Positions 2,070 to 25,129 of a stretch of DNA of 64,000 bases are shown piece after piece. The translations under genes and the position numbers were made by a program. The notes beneath the pieces were generated by a model. It ran no database searches. It was not told where the DNA came from and saw nothing but the letters and a program-made list of their open reading frames with translations. Source of the stretch: Longibacter salinarum (lineage in GTDB: Bacteria > Bacteroidota > Rhodothermia > Rhodothermales > Salinibacteraceae). Within the stretch, counting starts at the first letter, position 1, and every line of letters begins with the position of its first letter. The stretch lies in NCBI RefSeq assembly GCF_002554795.1, contig NZ_PDEQ01000003.1, forward strand, positions 124,001 through 188,000, written 5' to 3'.

Positions 2070-4793
2070 TCAGGCGTCATCTGCCTGGCCATTGGCGCCT
2101 GGCTCCTCCGATGCAGCTTCGCTTGTTGCGTCGTCGCCCTCGGCGGTCACGTCCGCTTCTTCAGCAGCGCCGTCGCCTGACGTTGCCTCGTCGTCGATCA
2201 CGACGCGGGTGACATCAGCGATGGAGTCGCCATCCTTGAGGTTGATCACGCGGACACCCTGAGTGTTGCGTCCCATCGTCGAGATCTCGTCGACCGACGT
2301 ACGGATCATGATCCCATTTTCGGTGATGATCATGAGATCCTCGCCGTTGTATACGCCTTTGATCGCAACGAGCTGTCCGGTGCGGTCCGTGCAGTTCATT
2401 GTAATCAGGCCTTTCCCGCCACGGCCCTGGACGCGGTAATTTTCCAGGTGCGTGCGCTTGCCATATCCTTTCTCGGCAATAGCGAGGACATCGACATCGT
2501 CGCGGGCTTCCGGCGGAACGCTGATCATGCCGACCAGCTCCTCGCCGTCCTCCAGACGCATGCCGCGGACGCCACGCGTATTTCGACCCATCGGGCGGGC
2601 GTCTTCCTCGTCGAAGTGAACGGCGCGGCCCCCAGATGATGCAACGACGACCGTGTTCTCTCCACCGGTGAGTGCGGCTTCCAGCAATTCGTCGCCGTCC
2701 TCGATGGAGATTCCAATGATGCCGTCGGTACGCGGACGACTGAATGCTTCGAGCTCCGTTTTCTTCACTTGTCCCTGTCGCGTGGCCATCAGGACATAGT
2801 GGGACGTGAGGAAATCCTCATCCTCAAAGTCATCTTTGGTGACGTTGAGCACCGTACGGATGCTGTCCTCCTTGTCGATCTGGATGTAGTTCCGGATCGA
2901 GCGACCCCGCGCTGTACGGCTTCCTTCCGGAATTTCGAACGGTCGCAGCCAGTAGCACTGGCCGTGGTCGGTGAAGAAGAGCAATACGTCGTGCGAGTGG
3001 CAAACGAACAGGTGTTCGATGTAGTCGTCGTCACGCTTGCCCGAGCCGCGCATGCCGACCCCGCCGCGGCCCTGAGAGCGATATTCGTCCACGCTGGTCC
3101 GTTTCACGAGGCCCTGGTGGGTGACCGTCACGACGACGTGCTCCCGCTCGATCAGGTCCTCGATGATGATGTCGCCACCGGTCTTGTCGATCTCCGTGCG
3201 GCGCTCATCGTTGAACGAATCTTTGACTTCCAGCAACTCATCTTTGATGATCTGCATCCGGAGCTCCTTGCTACCGAGGATGCTCTGGTAGCGCTGAATC
3301 TCCTGGATGATGTCGCGGTACTCACCGGCAATCTTCTCCCGCTCCAAGCCCGTAAGGCGGCTCAGCGTGAGGCGAAGGATCGCACGCGCCTGATCTTCCG
3401 TGAGCCAGTGTCCTTCTTGAGGACGACGTGCAAGGGTTTCGTATTCATCGTCCAGCATGTCCTTGACCGTCGTCTGCGACTTGTCGCTTTCGACGGGCGG
3501 AATCAGCGGGACGCCGAGTTCGCGGAGGTCATCCTCCGTGAGTTGCGACGGATACCGGCCCAGCATCAGGTTTTCGCGAGCGGCGTCCGTATCCGGAGAA
3601 TGGCGGACGATGGTGATCACCGCGTCGAGGTTGTCGAGCGCGAGCGTAAGGCCCTCCAGCACGTGAGCACGCTCCTGCGCTTTCCGCAGGTCGTACTCCG
3701 TCCGGCGAACGACGATCTCGTGCCGGTGATTGACGTAGTGCCGAATCGCGTCCTTGAGCGTGAGTACCTTCGGGCGGCCGTCCACGAGGGCGACCATGTT
3801 GACGCCGAAGGTATCCTGCAGGCGCGAGTTCTTGTAGATCTGGTTCTTGACGATGTCCGGCACCGCGTCCTGCTTCAGCTCCACAACGATGCGCATACCG
3901 TTGCGGTCGCTCTCGTCGCGGAGGTCGGACACGCCTTCGATCCGGTCCTGGCGGACGCGTTCGGCGATCCGCTCCAGCTCCCTCGACTTGTTGACCTGGT
4001 ACGGAATCTCCGTGATCACGAGAGCTTCGCGACCCTTGCGGACCTCCTCCACGTGCATCTTCGCACGCATGACGACGCGTCCGCGGCCCGTGTGGTAGGC
4101 CTCGTAGACGCCGGAATAGCCGTAGATGATGCCTCCCGTCGGAAAGTCCGGAGCGGGAAGATGCTCCATCAGGCCGTCAATGGTTATTTCCGGGTCGTCG
4201 ATGTACGCTACTGTCGCATCGATGGCCTCCCCAAGGTTGTGCGGCGGAATCTTCGTCGCCATTCCGACCGCGATGCCGTCCGCGCCGTTGACGAGCATGT
4301 TCGGGAAAGCCGCTGGGAGAACCGTCGGCTCTTCGAGCGTGCCGTCGAAGTTTTCGCGCGTGTCGACCGTTTCCTTGTCCAGGTCGGCCAGCATCTCTTC
4401 GGCGATCTTCGTCATGCGTGCCTCGGTATACCGCATCGCTGCAGCCGAGTCGCCGTCGATCGAGCCGAAGTTGCCCTGCCCGTCCACGAGCGGGTAGCGC
4501 ATCGAAAAGTCCTGCGCCAGGCGGACGAGCGTGTCGTACACCGACGAGTCGCCGTGAGGGTGGTACTTACCCAGCACCTCCCCGACGATACGAGCGCTCT
4601 TTTTGTAGGCAGCTCCAGCCGTCAGGTTGAGTTCGCTCATGCCGAACAGCACACGACGGTGCACCGGCTTGAGGCCGTCCCGCACATCCGGTAGGGCGCG
4701 GCTGACGATCACCGACATGGAGTAGTCGATGTAGGAGGACTTCATCTCCTCCTCAATATTAATCGGAATGATGCGGCTTTCTTCCGCTACCAT
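2070..4793 (-). CDS. gyrA: DNA gyrase subunit A
   Basis: Type IIA topoisomerase subunit that cuts and rejoins DNA and, with GyrB, introduces negative supercoils. The 907 residues include the N-terminal breakage-reunion domain with catalytic Tyr122 in the [11 protein letters not shown] context, a coiled-coil region, and a C-terminal beta-pinwheel with the gyrase-specific GyrA box QGRGGKG. The box points to gyrase rather than topoisomerase IV. Numbering matches E. coli: the quinolone-determining positions are Ser83 and Asp87 (GDSSVYD), the sensitive type. The last ~45 residues form an acidic, disordered tail, longer than usual and in keeping with an acidic proteome. The ATG at 4793 gives [10 protein letters not shown], the expected GyrA start. 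It is a single transcription unit ended by the hairpin at 2008–2040. Confidence 0.98.
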
Positions 4794-17513: not shown

Positions 17514-18653
17514 TCAGGTATTGGTGGGGAAGGCAAAGTCGGCGTATGCTCGCTCCGCGGTACCGAACCACCGATAGCTGTCGGAACGCGCCGCTTTGTA
17601 GGACTCGTAGATCTTCCGGTACTGTGCGTTGCCTGCGGCTTCGTCCTCCAGGAGTTGTTGCGTGACGTCTTGCGCTTTGGACATAACGTCCTCGGGAAAC
17701 TTGCGGAGTTCGGTTCCCTGCTCGAGGAGCCGTTCGAGTGCCGCCGGATTCTTGTGATCGTAGGACGCCAGCATATTCACGTTCGCCTCCGAGGCCGCGA
17801 CGGCGAGAGCGTGTTGATACGTGGCCGGGAGCTTATCGTAGGCATCCTGATTAACGTAGAACGTGAGGGCGGGGCCGGGCTCCCACCATCCAGGATAATA
17901 GTAGTACGGAGCGACCTCGTGAAAGCCGAGTTTCTCATCGTCATACGGCCCCACCCACTCGGCGGCATCGATGGCGCCGCGCTCAAGGGCCGGATAAATC
18001 TCGCCGCTGGGATAAACCTGTGTGTTGACGCCCATCTCATTCATTACCTGGCCACCGAGTCCAGGGATGCGCATTTTTAAGCCGTTCAGGTCGCTAAGCG
18101 ATTCGACGGCGACCCGGAACCATCCGCCCATCTGCATCCCGGTATTCCCGCCGGGAAAGTTGATCACGTTGAAATCAGAGAACAGGTCGCGCATCAGATC
18201 CATTCCGCCGCCGTGATACAACCACGCGTTGTACTGCCGGGCGGTCAGCCCGAAGGGCACAGTCGCATCGAACGCAAGCGCAGGATTTTTCCCGATGAAG
18301 TAGTAACTCGCCGCGTGCCCCATCTGCACGGTCCCCGTCTGCACGTTGCTCAGCACCTCAAGCGACGGGATGAGTTCGCCGCCCGGGTAGCAACGAATGT
18401 CGAACTTGCCCTCCGTCAGATCTGCGACGCGTTGGGCCATGACCTCAGCGGCGCCGTAGATCGTGTCGAGTGAACGGCTAAAGCTCGAGGCAAGTCGCCA
18501 CCGGATCGAGGGGCCGGTGATCACGTTCGGGCCACCGTCGGCATCGCTGGATGAGTCATCAGATCCACTTCCTGAATCGTCTCCGCAGGCCGTGAGCATG
18601 CCGGCTCCCACCGCACCGAGAAGAGCCGTTCGGGTAAAGTCGCGACGGTTCAT
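17514..18653 (-). CDS. TRAP transporter solute-binding lipoprotein (DctP/TakP type), Tat signal
   Basis: 379 residues from the ATG at 18653 (MNRRDFTRTALLG). The N-terminus combines a twin-arginine RRDF motif with a lipobox LTAC, so it is probably a folded, Tat-exported, lipid-anchored binding protein. A Ser/Asp-rich linker leads to the DctP fold: WRLASSF, GKFDIRCYPGGEL, LKMRIPGLGGQV (the carboxylate-binding Arg region) and AAEWVGPYDD. The WVGPYDDEKLGFHEVA stretch resembles TakP-type 2-oxoacid binders. The matching DctQ/DctM membrane subunits are not in the window; neighbours are an ion channel and an integrase relative. The in-frame start at 18767 is rejected because it buries the signal. Confidence 0.88.
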   Translation of the reverse strand: MNRRDFTRTALLGAVGAGMLTACGDDSGSGSDDSSSDADGGPNVITGPSIRWRLASSFSRSLDTIYGAAEVMAQRVADLTEGKFDIRCYPGGELIPSLEVLSNVQTGTVQMGHAASYYFIGKNPALAFDATVPFGLTARQYNAWLYHGGGMDLMRDLFSDFNVINFPGGNTGMQMGGWFRVAVESLSDLNGLKMRIPGLGGQVMNEMGVNTQVYPSGEIYPALERGAIDAAEWVGPYDDEKLGFHEVAPYYYYPGWWEPGPALTFYVNQDAYDKLPATYQHALAVAASEANVNMLASYDHKNPAALERLLEQGTELRKFPEDVMSKAQDVTQQLLEDEAAGNAQYRKIYESYKAARSDSYRWFGTAERAYADFAFPTNT

Positions 18654-18853
18654 ACAGAAAAAGGGTCGGGTCGAAGAATGTACGAGGACCTGCAGGCATA
18701 ACCCGTCTCCGAGCCGTGTCCCATACAGGCGCTTGTGAGTATACGGGAATCGGGGGAGAGATCGCAACTGTGGAGCGGGCTCTTTCCGTCGAAGTGCACA
18801 GCGGGACAGCGCATGGTCCGACTCTTGCGCTATGTAGAATCAACCGTTGAGTA

Positions 18854-18920
18854 CCTGTTCGTCGGACAGCCTTCGGCGATTCAACGATACGGACCTCTCG
18901 GTGGTCGGTCCTCGTGCCGC
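18854..18920. repeat. Copy 1 of a 67-bp dispersed intergenic element
   Basis: By hand alignment, 52 of 67 positions match 44792–44858 with no gaps, including an identical block CGGACAGCCTTCGGC. The minus-strand frames of the two copies also align (EDRP ... AEGCP), but copy 1 has a stop. It could be a decayed coding fragment or a structured DNA/RNA element. Confidence 0.65.
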
Positions 18921-19059
18921 TTGAAATACACGGCGTGGTTGAACTCGCGCACCAGGTCTACGTCGTCATCGTGAACGGCCCCCTCAGGTCTGCGAATAGA
19001 CATCAACGGCCGCGCTTACGTTTTTCGCCGCCTACCCGCCAAACAGGTTGTGATGCCGA

Positions 19060-19067
19060 TACATTTG
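19060..19067 (+). promoter_or_regulatory. Possible Bacteroidota -7 element (TACATTTG)
   Basis: Exact fit to TAnnTTTG, about 195 bp before the integrase-like gene. No -33 TTG at normal spacing. Weak call. Confidence 0.25.
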
Positions 19068-19068
19068 T

Positions 19069-19156
19069 GTTACACGACCGTGATTTGGCGTCTCCGGGCA
19101 CTGACCAATTGCGTTTGTACCAAAGAAACGGTTACATCTAGTATATAGCGGTTACA
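19069..19156 (+). promoter_or_regulatory. Three GTTACA words upstream of the integrase-like gene
   Basis: GTTACA occurs at 19069, 19131 and 19151. The last two are the 8-mer CGGTTACA spaced by exactly 20 bp, about two helical turns, which suits two protomers binding the same DNA face. The next gene begins 107 bp further on. Operator function is inferred only. Confidence 0.35.
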
Positions 19157-19262
19157 ATCCTGGCCGGATCGTTTGGAGCGCACACACGGATGTGCCATCT
19201 GAGTTGCCGGGAACGACCGCGAACTCTCTCATCCGTGCTATGGGCAAGGCCCATCATTTTCT

Positions 19263-20264
19263 ATGAGTGGATTAGTAACATCGCGGTCGGCAGGCCCTCC
19301 TGCGAGCGAGGCCGGACGGCTCCTGAAGGTCGCGCGCATGCTCAGTGATTTCCCGGATCTCGAGAAGCGGCAGAAGCAGATCTATAGCCTGTGGATTATG
19401 GGCTACCTGCGCTATGTGGATGCGAACGATCTCGGGGAGCCTGAGCCCCCGCATATCAACCGGTTTCTCGATCGACTGACGGAGAAGAAGGGCATTGACG
19501 ACGCGATGCGGCAGCAGGCCGCTGAAGCGCTCGTGTTCTTTCACGAATGCGTTCTGGACCAGAGCGTAAGCGAGATGCATGGCCGGCTTTCCATGTTGAG
19601 CCGGGACGAGCGCCAGCGAATCCTCAGCCAACTCTCCGGGCCGGAGAAGCTGCTGGCCCGCATCGTCTTTCACACCGAGCTCGACCTGACGGAGGCACTT
19701 CGCCTCCGGGTTGGAGATGTTGATCTAACACGTGGTCAGATCACGGTGTCCGATGCGCAGGGCTGTAGCGATCGGTTCGTGACGCTGTCGAGTGAACTCA
19801 CCGTCGCGCTCGAACGTCATCTCAAGCGTGTACAGGAGATGCACGAGCGTGACCTCGCCGAAGGACATGGAAGCGTCGACCTCCCGGTTTCGATTCGCGA
19901 CCAGTTTCCCGGGGCAGGCTCTGCATGGATGTGGCAGTATGTTTTTCCGTCACCACGGCGAACGGTCGATCTGCATTCGGGACGCGAGCGACGGTATCCG
20001 ATGCAACCAAATAACCTGATGGAGGCGATCGAGATGCTGACGGAGCCTCGCACGAGGCACTTCATCTCGGCCGTCTCGCGTGGGCCAGCCCCTGGACAGC
20101 GTGACGAGAAGAAGCCTGCGGCATCTACGCGACCGAACGAGTCGGCCAGTGAGCCTGAGCCTACACCTGAGCCCGATGAGCCCGTACCAGCACAAGAAAA
20201 TGGCCCCACCGATGAAGGTGAGGCCGAGCAGAGCCACAGCGAGTGGAAGTCCGTTTTTTCCTGA
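19263..20264 (+). CDS. Integron-integrase-like protein lacking all catalytic residues
   Basis: 333 residues. The N-terminal SAM-like, core-binding domain (about 35–100; YSLWIMGYLRYVD, HINRFLDRL) and the first half of the tyrosine-recombinase catalytic domain (about 110–255) are clear. It even keeps the insertion found only in IntI-type integrases: DLPVSIRDQFPGAG, WMWQYVFP, then DLHSG-RERR. However, catalytic Arg I is Asp141 (TELDLTEALRL in place of TGLRxxEALRL), the catalytic Lys is Ser169, and the protein stops before the HxLRH box and the nucleophile Tyr. A Pro/Glu-rich tail (about 275–333) replaces them. The frame is intact and coding-like. It is likely a DNA-binding protein derived from an integrase. 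No attC sites or cassettes were found. Confidence 0.8.
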   Translation: MSGLVTSRSAGPPASEAGRLLKVARMLSDFPDLEKRQKQIYSLWIMGYLRYVDANDLGEPEPPHINRFLDRLTEKKGIDDAMRQQAAEALVFFHECVLDQSVSEMHGRLSMLSRDERQRILSQLSGPEKLLARIVFHTELDLTEALRLRVGDVDLTRGQITVSDAQGCSDRFVTLSSELTVALERHLKRVQEMHERDLAEGHGSVDLPVSIRDQFPGAGSAWMWQYVFPSPRRTVDLHSGRERRYPMQPNNLMEAIEMLTEPRTRHFISAVSRGPAPGQRDEKKPAASTRPNESASEPEPTPEPDEPVPAQENGPTDEGEAEQSHSEWKSVFS

Positions 20265-20321: not shown

Positions 20322-21041
20322 TTACCCTCGAGGACGGAGCGGGCGCATGACGACTTCGGAGATCAGGTAATTCTCCGGGCTCTCGATCACGTGCATGACG
20401 GTTGAGGATACGTCTTCGGGCTTCATGGGATGATCGGTCATATCGACACCGGCCACGTCGAAGAAGTCCGTCTCGATCGATCCGGGGTAGACGCACGTGA
20501 CTTTAATGCCATCGTCACGGAGCTCCTTCATGATGGACTCACTGAAGCCGCGGACGCTGAACTTGGATGCGTTGTAGGCGCTGATATTCGGATTCCCCAG
20601 GAGTCCGGCGATCGACGCAATATTGACGATGTGGCCCCCGAAGCCGGATTCATCATTCTGGGCTCTCATGGTCGGAACGGCATTGCGCGTGCAGAAAAAC
20701 ACGCCCCGAACGTTGGTTTCCATGAGCGTGTCCCAGTGCTCTGTGGAGAACTCGTCGACCGGTCCGAATTTACCGAGTCCGGCGTTGTTGATCAGAACGT
20801 CAATCCGCCCGGCCGCGTCGACGGCTGTGTCGAAAGCGTCGGATACAGACTCTTCGTCTCGAACATCGCACCGGACCGGGTGAAATGAGTCCCCGAGTTC
20901 ATTTCGGAGGTCCTCCATCACGTCGAGACTTCGTGCAAGGCCGAAGACGGTGGCGCCCCGGTCGATTAGGTCCGAAACGAACCGTTGCCCGATGCCGCTG
21001 CTGGCTCCGGTGACGACGGCGACGCGATCAGTGAAGTCCAT
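20322..21041 (-). CDS. Short-chain dehydrogenase/reductase
   Basis: 239 residues, classical SDR. It has the NAD(P) glycine motif TGASSGIG at the N-terminus, NNAG after strand 4, the catalytic Ser in NIASIAG, and YNASK for the Tyr/Lys pair, followed by YPGSIETDFF. The Arg in LARSLD after strand 2 and the absence of an Asp at the end of that strand favour NADPH. Substrate unknown; the family covers 3-oxoacyl, sugar and steroid-like ketones. It ends 57 bp from the convergent integrase-like gene. Confidence 0.9.
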   Translation of the reverse strand: MDFTDRVAVVTGASSGIGQRFVSDLIDRGATVFGLARSLDVMEDLRNELGDSFHPVRCDVRDEESVSDAFDTAVDAAGRIDVLINNAGLGKFGPVDEFSTEHWDTLMETNVRGVFFCTRNAVPTMRAQNDESGFGGHIVNIASIAGLLGNPNISAYNASKFSVRGFSESIMKELRDDGIKVTCVYPGSIETDFFDVAGVDMTDHPMKPEDVSSTVMHVIESPENYLISEVVMRPLRPRG

Positions 21042-21373
21042 GGTAGCGTTGTGGTGTGGTCGGCGATTGGATGTCGTATGCGTAAACCAGTTTTAGCATA
21101 CGGAGCGGCAGGGCCCATGATCACGAGCCGGGTGATCGTCCGGTAACGTTCACCGGCTCAATGCTGAATTCACAGCCGAATGCATTGTCAGCTCGAGGAG
21201 AAATAGACTTCGCTGCCCTTCCGTCTCCAGTGCTCAACGGCGGTTTCACATGAACGCATGCCACCAGCGGACGGCGTCCGCGTATGTGGTTGGGGTTGGA
21301 CCGTACGGATCCCCTTACGGCGCGCCGTTCGTACAAGCCACCCACTCTGCTCGCACGAATTCTATTTTTTGCT
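21042..21373. other. Intergenic region between divergent SDR and trmH genes
   Basis: 332 bases with no supportable gene. Just upstream of the SDR start (21042–21085) the + strand is G/T-rich in a way that recalls the phased arrays, but I cannot show a convincing period. Nothing else stands out. Confidence 0.45.
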
Positions 21374-22234
21374 ATGCCGTCCTCCGAAACCGGTTCAGGC
21401 GACACCGCTCGCCCGGATGTTCAGCCCCCAGATACGTCGTTGCCTTTCGAGGGGCGGGACCGAAACGACGTCGACCCGGATCGAGCGATGCAGCAACTGT
21501 TGGCTGCGGGAGGCCGCCCGCCCCACCGTGATCGTCCGTTTGACATCGCGGGACGGGAGCTCTCACCGACGCGCATTATCGAATTGCTTACGCCATTCAT
21601 GACGGAGCGGCGTATGCGTCGGATTCGAGAGGTCGTCGGTGAGCGGACACGAACGGTGCTGCCGGTCGTGGAGGGATTGGTAAACACAGGCAACGTGAGT
21701 GCTGTCATGCGTAGCGCGGAAGCGCTGGGCTACCAGGATGTTCACGTCGTCAAAGGCTCCAACGAAAAGCGCTACAAGCACTCGAAGCGCACAACGCAGG
21801 GAGCGCAGCACTGGCTTGATGTGTGGCGCTGGCCGGATGCTGATGCCTTCGTTCGAGCCATGCACGACTCCGGGTATCGGGTCGTGGTGACGGCTCTGAG
21901 GGAAGACGCGAAGTCGATTCGCGAGGTCGACTTCACACGCCCGACGGCTCTGGTTGTGGGAAATGAGCTGGAGGGAGCGAGCGACGCCATGCTCGAGCTT
22001 GCCGATGAAGCCGCGATCATCCCGTTGAACGGGTTCACGGAGAGCTTCAACGTGTCCGTGGCTGCGTCTATTGGTCTGTACCATGCCCGGGAGGATCGCA
22101 TTCGGCGACAGGGGCATCATGCGGACCTCTCACAGGAGGAGCAGGAAGCGCTCGTCGCCCGATTCTGCCTGCGGAGCGTGACGAACGCAGAGTCGATCAT
22201 CGAGCGCGTCTTGTCCGACCTACAGAGCAGCTAA
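21374..22234 (+). CDS. trmH: TrmH-family tRNA 2'-O-ribose methyltransferase
   Basis: 286 residues, SPOUT superfamily. Motif 1 is NTGNVSAVMRSAEALG (with the conserved Asn and Arg), motif 2 LVVGNELEG, motif 3 IPLNGFTESFNVSVAAS. The GSNEKRYKHSKRTTQGAQHW stretch, followed by W-containing sequence, is like TrmH, which makes Gm18 in tRNA. The ATG at 21374 is preferred; an upstream in-frame start at 21284 adds 30 unsupported residues. An N-terminal ~50-residue acidic extension is present. The stop overlaps the convergent downstream gene by 15 bp. A different SpoU target (rRNA) cannot be excluded. Confidence 0.87.
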   Translation: MPSSETGSGDTARPDVQPPDTSLPFEGRDRNDVDPDRAMQQLLAAGGRPPHRDRPFDIAGRELSPTRIIELLTPFMTERRMRRIREVVGERTRTVLPVVEGLVNTGNVSAVMRSAEALGYQDVHVVKGSNEKRYKHSKRTTQGAQHWLDVWRWPDADAFVRAMHDSGYRVVVTALREDAKSIREVDFTRPTALVVGNELEGASDAMLELADEAAIIPLNGFTESFNVSVAASIGLYHAREDRIRRQGHHADLSQEEQEALVARFCLRSVTNAESIIERVLSDLQSS

Positions 22235-22744
22235 ATCGGTGTCGTTTGCGGCGTACGATGGGAGGTCGCGAGCGATCATTGGCGTGGTGCTTAGGCGTTC
22301 CCCGAACCGCACGGCCGACCAGAGGAGTGGGCGCCGAATGACGGTTCCGTCGGTCGGGTGGAGTGGAACGCGAAACTGGGTGCCCTCGGCGTCCGAACGT
22401 GGCTCCCCCGCGCAGTTGCCGCCGATGTAGCAGACCGTCCGTTCGGTCGGCGTATTCGCTCGGATCGTACCGAGAACCGCCAGGGGAACGAGGTCTCCAG
22501 CTTTCTTTTTGGCCTCAAACAGGGCTCGGCTCCGGTGGAACGTGTCAGCCGGAAGCGGCATGCGGACGAAAATTCGGGACTTCACGAACGCCACGTGCTC
22601 TCGGAAAACCCATTCGAACTGACGGTTGAGCCCACGCGACGCGACGACGTCCCGCAGCGCCGTCACGGCCTCCGTAAACGAGGCCGTTCTCAGTCCGGTT
22701 GGATGAAGCTCATTCCATCCGTCAATGTCGAGCGTCGCACTCAT
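22220..22744 (-). CDS. Conserved hypothetical protein
   Basis: 174 residues, no signal peptide or membrane helix. Visible features are QFEWVFREHVAFVKSRIFVR, CYIGGNCAG and RRPLLWSAVRFGERL, which look like a small globular alpha/beta protein. I do not recognise the family. Its last 15 bp overlap the end of trmH on the other strand. It lies 66 bp after the TPR protein gene, probably in the same transcript. Confidence 0.6.
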   Translation of the reverse strand: MSATLDIDGWNELHPTGLRTASFTEAVTALRDVVASRGLNRQFEWVFREHVAFVKSRIFVRMPLPADTFHRSRALFEAKKKAGDLVPLAVLGTIRANTPTERTVCYIGGNCAGEPRSDAEGTQFRVPLHPTDGTVIRRPLLWSAVRFGERLSTTPMIARDLPSYAANDTDLAAL

Positions 22745-24517: not shown

Positions 24518-25129
24518 TCACTCATCCAGGACAAAGAGGCGCTGGGCATCCCCCCATTTCCAGATATACAGCCAGGCCGGACCGGTGCCTTCCGCATAGA
24601 GATCTACGCGATTCCTCCAGAGAAGCGGATACACGTTCATCTGGCTTAGTCCGTCGACGTTTGCTGATTTTGGGACCGCAGACGCCCAAAGCAGTCGGCC
24701 GTTGACTTGGTAGGCAATGGCAGCGGTCCGTTCTTCTGTGCGGCGAAAGCTGAGCAGAAATCCGTCCTCGTAGCGGATACTGTCCGATGCGGCTTCCGTT
24801 GAGAGCGCGTCGAGCGAGGCCGGTGGCATTCCACGCATGTCGAACGAGGTACCGCCGGTGAGGACCCCGTGAGTTAGCAGGCCGAGGGGGATCGTCACGA
24901 ATCCGATGAACGCAAGCCCGCCCCAGAGAAGGCGCCGGAAGGGGAGGGAAGAGATGGTCAGGTGAGCCGAACCGGCCGCCACGGCAACCACGAGGGGAGC
25001 GAAGAGAGGATGGGCCGCGGCAGCGAGGGAGGCACCCACGGCCAGAAGAAATAGCGCCGTCATCACGCCAGCGAAGGCAACGGGCATCGGTACGATGATA
25101 TTGGGCAAATTGGGCAGGCTCGTACCCAT
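24518..25129 (-). CDS. Membrane protein with extracytoplasmic domain, unknown
   Basis: 203 residues. Three hydrophobic helices (about 13–35, 40–60 and 68–90) precede a soluble C-terminal domain of about 110 residues with a propeller-blade look (GFLLSFRRTEERTAAIAYQV, YPLLWRNRVDLYAEG, WLYIWKWGDAQRLFV). No family recognised. It precedes the TPR gene by 93 bp on the same strand. Confidence 0.6.
   Translation of the reverse strand: MGTSLPNLPNIIVPMPVAFAGVMTALFLLAVGASLAAAAHPLFAPLVVAVAAGSAHLTISSLPFRRLLWGGLAFIGFVTIPLGLLTHGVLTGGTSFDMRGMPPASLDALSTEAASDSIRYEDGFLLSFRRTEERTAAIAYQVNGRLLWASAVPKSANVDGLSQMNVYPLLWRNRVDLYAEGTGPAWLYIWKWGDAQRLFVLDE

Follow-up and report, generated by a model that had tools for sequence, protein, structure and literature searches.

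A gene derived from an integron integrase (IntI), encoding a protein whose catalytic domain is cut off after its first half, was found at one chromosomal locus in five species of three genera. It very probably represents an exaptation of the integrase to some new function. The window analyzed was a stretch of 64,000 nucleotides of Longibacter salinarum (contig NZ_PDEQ01000003.1, positions 124,001 to 188,000), the genome of which (G000) comprised 4,406,485 bases in 22 contigs. The same locus and truncation in three genera, the single clade formed by the sequences and the purifying selection acting on them argue for exaptation instead of decay. The exaptation from an integron integrase proposed in an earlier sequence-only reading was thus well supported. 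The features of the locus were as follows:

17514 to 18767, minus strand: DctP-type solute-binding protein, divergent neighbour (synteny comparison)
19131 to 19158, plus strand: sigma-70-like promoter match containing the GTTACA copies (consensus match only)
19263 to 20264, plus strand: dead IntI-derived coding sequence, 333 aa, intact (open reading frame, TIGR02249 and 2a3v matches, orthologues)
19308 to 19562, plus strand: N-terminal core-binding (SAM-like) domain of four helices, residues 16–100 (PF13495, AlphaFold2)
19563 to 19586, plus strand: shortened interdomain linker, residues 101–108, with the RA(R/K)xP stretch deleted (alignments)
19587 to 20042, plus strand: first half of the catalytic domain, residues 109–260, without the HxLRH/Tyr half, well modelled (2a3v alignment, AlphaFold2, structure search)
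19683 to 19685, plus strand: Asp141, aligned with Arg I; each of the five orthologues has D or N (alignments, tree alignment)
19758 to 19760, plus strand: Gln166, aligned with the catalytic Lys; orthologues have Q, S or T (2a3v alignment, clade comparison)
19845 to 19952, plus strand: IntI-specific insertion region, residues 195–230, with QFPGAG and WMWQYVFP (alignments)
20049 to 20261, plus strand: Pro/Glu-rich tail, predicted disordered, residues 263–333 (pLDDT, dN/dS, orthologue alignment)
20322 to 21041, minus strand: short-chain dehydrogenase (SDR), convergent neighbour, conserved beside the dead gene in genera g1, g3, and g6 (synteny comparison)
21284 to 22234, plus strand: SpoU-type rRNA methylase, syntenic beyond the SDR in g1 and g3 (synteny comparison)

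The 333-aa protein matched the integron integrase profile TIGR02249 (E = 9.4e-43; residues 34–256 on profile positions 15–246 of 315) and the PDB entry of IntI4, 2a3v (E = 3.8e-20; residues 35–257 on 20–252). Its profile score of 146.7 bits was under the curated cut-off of 265, which places it outside the IntI family as that profile defines it. The insertion between both catalytic boxes, which marks IntI, was present and aligned with 2a3v with a one-residue gap; W224, Q225, Y226, F228, and P229 of this insertion were retained in all five dead sequences. These two comparisons confirmed the alignment with IntI that had been made by eye through the N-terminal domain, the start of the catalytic domain and the IntI-only insertion. 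The similarity ended at residue 256 in the first and 257 in the second, with no match past that point. The N-terminal domain also matched PF13495 (E = 1.3e-4, under the Pfam cut-off). The RA(R/K)xP motif, conserved in the linker of canonical IntI, was deleted in five of five dead orthologues.

The protein terminated ahead of the HxLRH...Tyr half. The open reading frame was intact over 333 aa, as had been read from the DNA, and when a hidden frameshift was sought, the other frames downstream of it carried no missing catalytic half. The base composition of the gene was near that of its neighbours. A Pro/Glu-rich tail in place of the missing half was present in the window protein, but the two g3 orthologues simply ended. 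The tail was at least 61 aa long in both g1 species, where it terminated in HSEW(K/T)SVF, short in g6, and lacking in g3, and is therefore not the conserved part of the protein.

The catalytic set of IntI (R, K, H, R, H/W, and Y) was absent from all five orthologues, which carried D or N at Arg I and Q, S or T at the Lys, the remainder being missing. The canonical IntI compared have R in the column of Asp141, in agreement with the earlier assignment. The Lys of the GKG motif is the catalytic Lys of IntI. In the 2a3v alignment its column was occupied by Gln166, and Ser169, which had been taken for the replaced catalytic Lys, aligned with the second Lys of GKGGK; that assignment was wrong. The acid Glu144 was the sole active-site residue left. 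The claim that all catalytic residues had been lost held for Arg I, the Lys, and the HxLRH/Tyr half and was slightly overstated with respect to this acid. Judged from these alignments, recombinase activity of the protein cannot be expected.

A structure was predicted with AlphaFold2 from an alignment with one orthologue and 38 canonical IntI in truncated form. The mean pLDDT was 78.5, and 171 residues, mostly between 41 and 250, reached 90 or more; dips occurred at the linker and near residues 161–170, and much of the tail was below 50. The helices of the N-terminal domain were placed at residues 16–29, 35–54, 62–76, and 80–97. Prediction from two dead sequences alone gave a poor model (mean pLDDT 47.7), so the fold is claimed on the basis of homology, and no claim is made on the stability of the half-domain. 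The best structural match of the model was IntI4 (Z 17.7 over 237 residues). The overall rmsd of 14 suggests that the two domains are arranged differently from those of IntI4.

A profile built from the five dead orthologues was searched against 27 genomes of the family, 114 of the order, and 394 drawn from across the phylum. Scores of 482–516 bits were obtained in exactly five genomes, and every other IntI-like match in the three sets scored at most 158 bits, under one third of these values. The carriers were, in genus g1, G000 and its nearest relative G001 (contig JAAAOT010000072.1 of the metagenome bin GSL.Bin3), G003 (about 3.7 Mb in about 40 contigs) and G010 in g3, and G006 in g6. They shared the truncation, the deleted linker motif and the convergent SDR neighbour. 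The orthologue in G006, a fragmented draft of 370 contigs, contained one in-frame TAG (L009, about 2083–2085, minus strand), a candidate nonsense codon that is either real or an assembly error; the coding sequence was conserved on either side of it. Among the phage, plasmid, and viral matches listed, only IntI-like proteins of about 26–33% identity occurred; the dead profile detected no relative in viral contigs, and no defence-system model matched.

In a tree of the shared region that also took in 24 canonical IntI, including the intact IntI of G000, the five dead sequences formed one clade with support of 100/100 and a long stem. Conservation of the dead form across species, the check by phylogeny that had been suggested, was thus observed. 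Twenty-five residues were invariant in the clade and rare or absent among the canonical IntI. This indicated that the family is under constraints of its own. In the former active-site region, Gly167-Cys168, Asp/Asn141, and Tyr-Pro-Met 245–247 were invariant in the clade. The intact IntI of G000 (L002, C2:756029-756937, minus strand; also C2:756233, 344 aa) retained HTLRH and the Tyr and was located near the end of contig C2. IntI-like copies with stops or a partial profile match were observed in several family genomes (L012, L029, L032, L035, and other loci of g8, g4, and g5), and IntI decay seems frequent in the family.

The immediate neighbours of the dead gene, encoding the SDR, the SpoU methylase, DctP, and an ion channel, were ordinary chromosomal genes. 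Since the SDR gene is convergent and the DctP gene divergent, the dead gene belongs to no operon. The SDR gene was found in all nine family genera searched, and beside it no relative of the dead gene was detected in the family genomes outside the five carriers. In five Salinibacter-group (g8) genomes the site was empty, with an SDR-to-DctP gap of 0.13–0.52 kb. The RpoB tree placed g1 outside ((g4,g3),(g6,g8)), with carriers on both sides of Salinibacter. Two histories were considered: the simplest given this topology is one old origin in the common ancestor followed by loss in g4 and g8; the alternative is that the gene moved from genus to genus and landed in the same spot. Two further open reading frames in the window (22220-22744 and 24518-25129, both minus strand) had no Pfam match, and the second was 61% identical to its G001 counterpart.

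The dead gene was under purifying selection comparable with that on its neighbours, and relaxed selection was not what was seen. Between the two g1 species, dN/dS was 0.018 for the core (residues 1–272; bootstrap 0.009–0.032; pS 0.69, pN 0.03), 0.009 for the half-catalytic part, and 0.13 for the tail (273–333), and the values of seven neighbouring genes (0.044–0.137) were all above that of the core. Between the two g3 species it was 0.071 for the dead gene, compared with 0.029 for the SDR, 0.040 for another neighbour, and 0.070 for SpoU. Codon-model omega across the five species was 0.031, with 0.037 for the SDR and 0.029 for SpoU, and the exact values in such comparisons are rough, dS being saturated between genera. 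The suggested dN/dS check thus indicated constraint in g1 and across all five species. The view that the gene is not simply decaying stood as well: the copy was not unique, selection was not relaxed, and no restoring frameshift was present.

The residues by which IntI handles DNA were largely replaced. In VchIntIA, eight residues that touch the extrahelical attC bases are P232, H240, H241, Q145, W157, K209, Y210, and W219 (PMC3053210). Six of these were replaced in the window protein (P232 by L237, H240 by Y245, H241 by P246, Q145 by G151, W157 by S163, and K209 by Q214); the change of Y210 to F215 was conservative, and W219 was kept as W224. Eight of the 12 conserved basic positions of IntI were lost in all five dead sequences, and of the 41 conserved hydrophobic positions, 17 were kept in all five and 12 were lost. 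The net charge of the shared region ranged from −6 to +4 in the dead clade, against +5 to +27 in the 24 canonical IntI. Canonical IntI of the same halophile family (L013 and others of g8) keep a basic net charge, so that the loss in the dead clade stands out. The IntI-type DNA interface is thus predicted to be largely dismantled. Both g3 proteins retained a net charge of +4, which leaves room for DNA binding, and binding by the core-binding domain is possible. Short linkers occur in other tyrosine recombinases, and the shortening of the linker was not taken to disprove a DNA clamp.

Upstream of the dead gene lies a divergent intergenic region of 0.5 kb (18768-19262) with some conserved blocks. 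It contained two copies of GGTTACA, at 19130 and 19150. An array of GTTACA as a conserved operator was considered and rejected, since only one degenerate copy was visible upstream of the gene in G001, the closest species, and the copies overlapped the promoter match. Two short blocks in this region, around GTGTTACACGA (nearly palindromic) and CAATTGCGTTTGT, were conserved between the g1 species (L037 upstream of 3839 in the counterpart). The carrier genomes contained no set of sites matching CGTGTTACACGA, a conserved palindrome-like block. At 19240-19254, just short of the start codon, the window has a perfect inverted repeat, ATGGGCAAGGCCCAT, with a T-run behind it; the repeat was not evident in G001.

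As for what the protein does, we tentatively prefer a non-catalytic adaptor that would dock a partner protein through the half-catalytic domain. On this reading, a chromosomal integron integrase was truncated in the middle of its catalytic domain in an ancestor of a halophilic lineage including Longibacter, Longimonas, and Salinibacter, and the truncated protein was kept for a new, non-recombinase function. The retained half-catalytic domain, consisting of the beta-sheet and the IntI insertion, would provide the docking surface, and the N-terminal core-binding domain would make weak contact with DNA at most. The erosion of IntI-like DNA recognition together with the constraints specific to the dead clade favours the adaptor; the gene neighbours suggest no partner protein for it. 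A comparable case is TnsF of Tn6022-like Tn7 transposons, an inactivated tyrosine recombinase that selects a target and whose partial catalytic domain binds TniQ (PMC10293859). Both proteins combine a core-binding domain with a partial catalytic domain. However, TnsF carries a second core-binding domain and a zinc-finger region at its N-terminus and belongs to a transposon, whereas the dead gene is chromosomal, is inherited at one locus, and has an IntI ancestor; no such zinc-finger region was found in the 333 aa, and the immediate neighbours were not a Tn7 context.

A second explanation, somewhat disfavoured and rather unlikely, is a transcription regulator that binds specific double-stranded sites at neighbouring or distant targets through both retained domains. 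Its precedent is MrpR of phage SPbeta, in which a tyrosine-recombinase fold that has lost catalysis acts as a DNA-binding repressor (PMC10516654). Structural alignment of the model gave Z 7.4 with MrpR (8a0a) and Z 8.2 with SroF (9rgl), another phage repressor, the fold match extending over residues 19–263; the core-binding domain is retained, and the divergent intergenic region upstream has some conserved blocks. However, Z values of 7–8 are near background for the structure-search tool. In MrpR, which serves a phage, the catalytic domain is complete and includes Lys169 and Tyr304, whereas the dead protein is without the half that gives a major DNA contact in XerH (helix K; PMC10293859). The loss of conserved basic and attC-contact residues also speaks against a regulator, as does the lack of a recurring set of CGTGTTACACGA sites. 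In particular, the GTTACA sites through which the protein had been proposed to act were not supported: the repeats are not conserved and fit a promoter better, and the IntI DNA interface is largely dismantled by the alignments.

It is improbable that the protein modulates active recombinases by pairing with XerC/XerD or the resident IntI, whether as an accessory or a dominant-negative subunit. G000 does possess suitable targets, namely the intact canonical IntI of 344 aa and several Xer-like recombinases. However, no intact IntI was found in the carriers G006 and G010, both incomplete drafts, and the gene neighbours are ordinary chromosomal genes. Subunits of tyrosine recombinases normally link through a helix in the C-terminal part, and the part that was lost contains this helix.

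It is more improbable still that the gene is a decaying pseudogene whose frame is open by chance. In favour of decay, roughly one intI gene in three is a pseudogene (PMC2426708), the G006 orthologue is interrupted by a stop codon, and several Salinibacter-group genomes hold broken IntI copies. However, intI pseudogenes are generally not common to related species (PMC2426708), which makes a conserved dead form unusual for IntI; here the truncation and locus were identical across three genera, with dN/dS of 0.018 in g1 and 0.031 across the five species. A split recombinase whose Tyr half is encoded elsewhere, although suggested by a break located between the two catalytic boxes, has a negligible chance, since Arg I and the Lys are replaced too, so that a completed enzyme would still be inactive, and a free-standing IntI C-terminal half was absent from the five carrier genomes, within the limits of draft genomes.

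Exapted dead tyrosine recombinases are already known, as MrpR and TnsF show. With IntI (TIGR02249; VchIntIA/IntI4, 2a3v), the dead protein shares fold and sequence over residues 34–257, including the insertion with Trp224 and the QYVFP block. It differs in the absence of Arg I, Lys, His, Arg, His, and Tyr, in the deleted linker motif, in the replacement of six of eight attC contacts, and in its ordinary chromosomal surroundings. MrpR/YopR (8a0a, 8bj6) and SroF (9rgl) resemble it as tyrosine-recombinase folds without recombinase function, which has been shown for MrpR; no relation to the three was found at the sequence level. Plant ALOG regulators contain a non-catalytic domain descended from the N-terminal domain of a DIRS1-type tyrosine recombinase (PMC3537659), and differ in being eukaryotic, DIRS1-derived, and limited to that domain. 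A search of open-licence papers returned reports of IntI pseudogenes and no domesticated or exapted integron integrase.

On a single occasion, IntI may have become a stable chromosomal gene of halophiles with a new non-recombinase function, either a docking adaptor or a ligand- or DNA-responsive regulator, in which the remodelled active-site region would form a new functional surface; we hold this reading a little more tentatively than the adaptor itself. Annotation may label such genes as integron integrase, and integrons may then be inferred where none exist. IntI is known as the mover of gene cassettes, and copies of it that are broken are usually taken for short-lived pseudogenes. A truncated IntI common to three genera and conserved like its neighbours suggests that domestication is possible, and it offers a small example of half a recombinase becoming a non-enzymatic protein.
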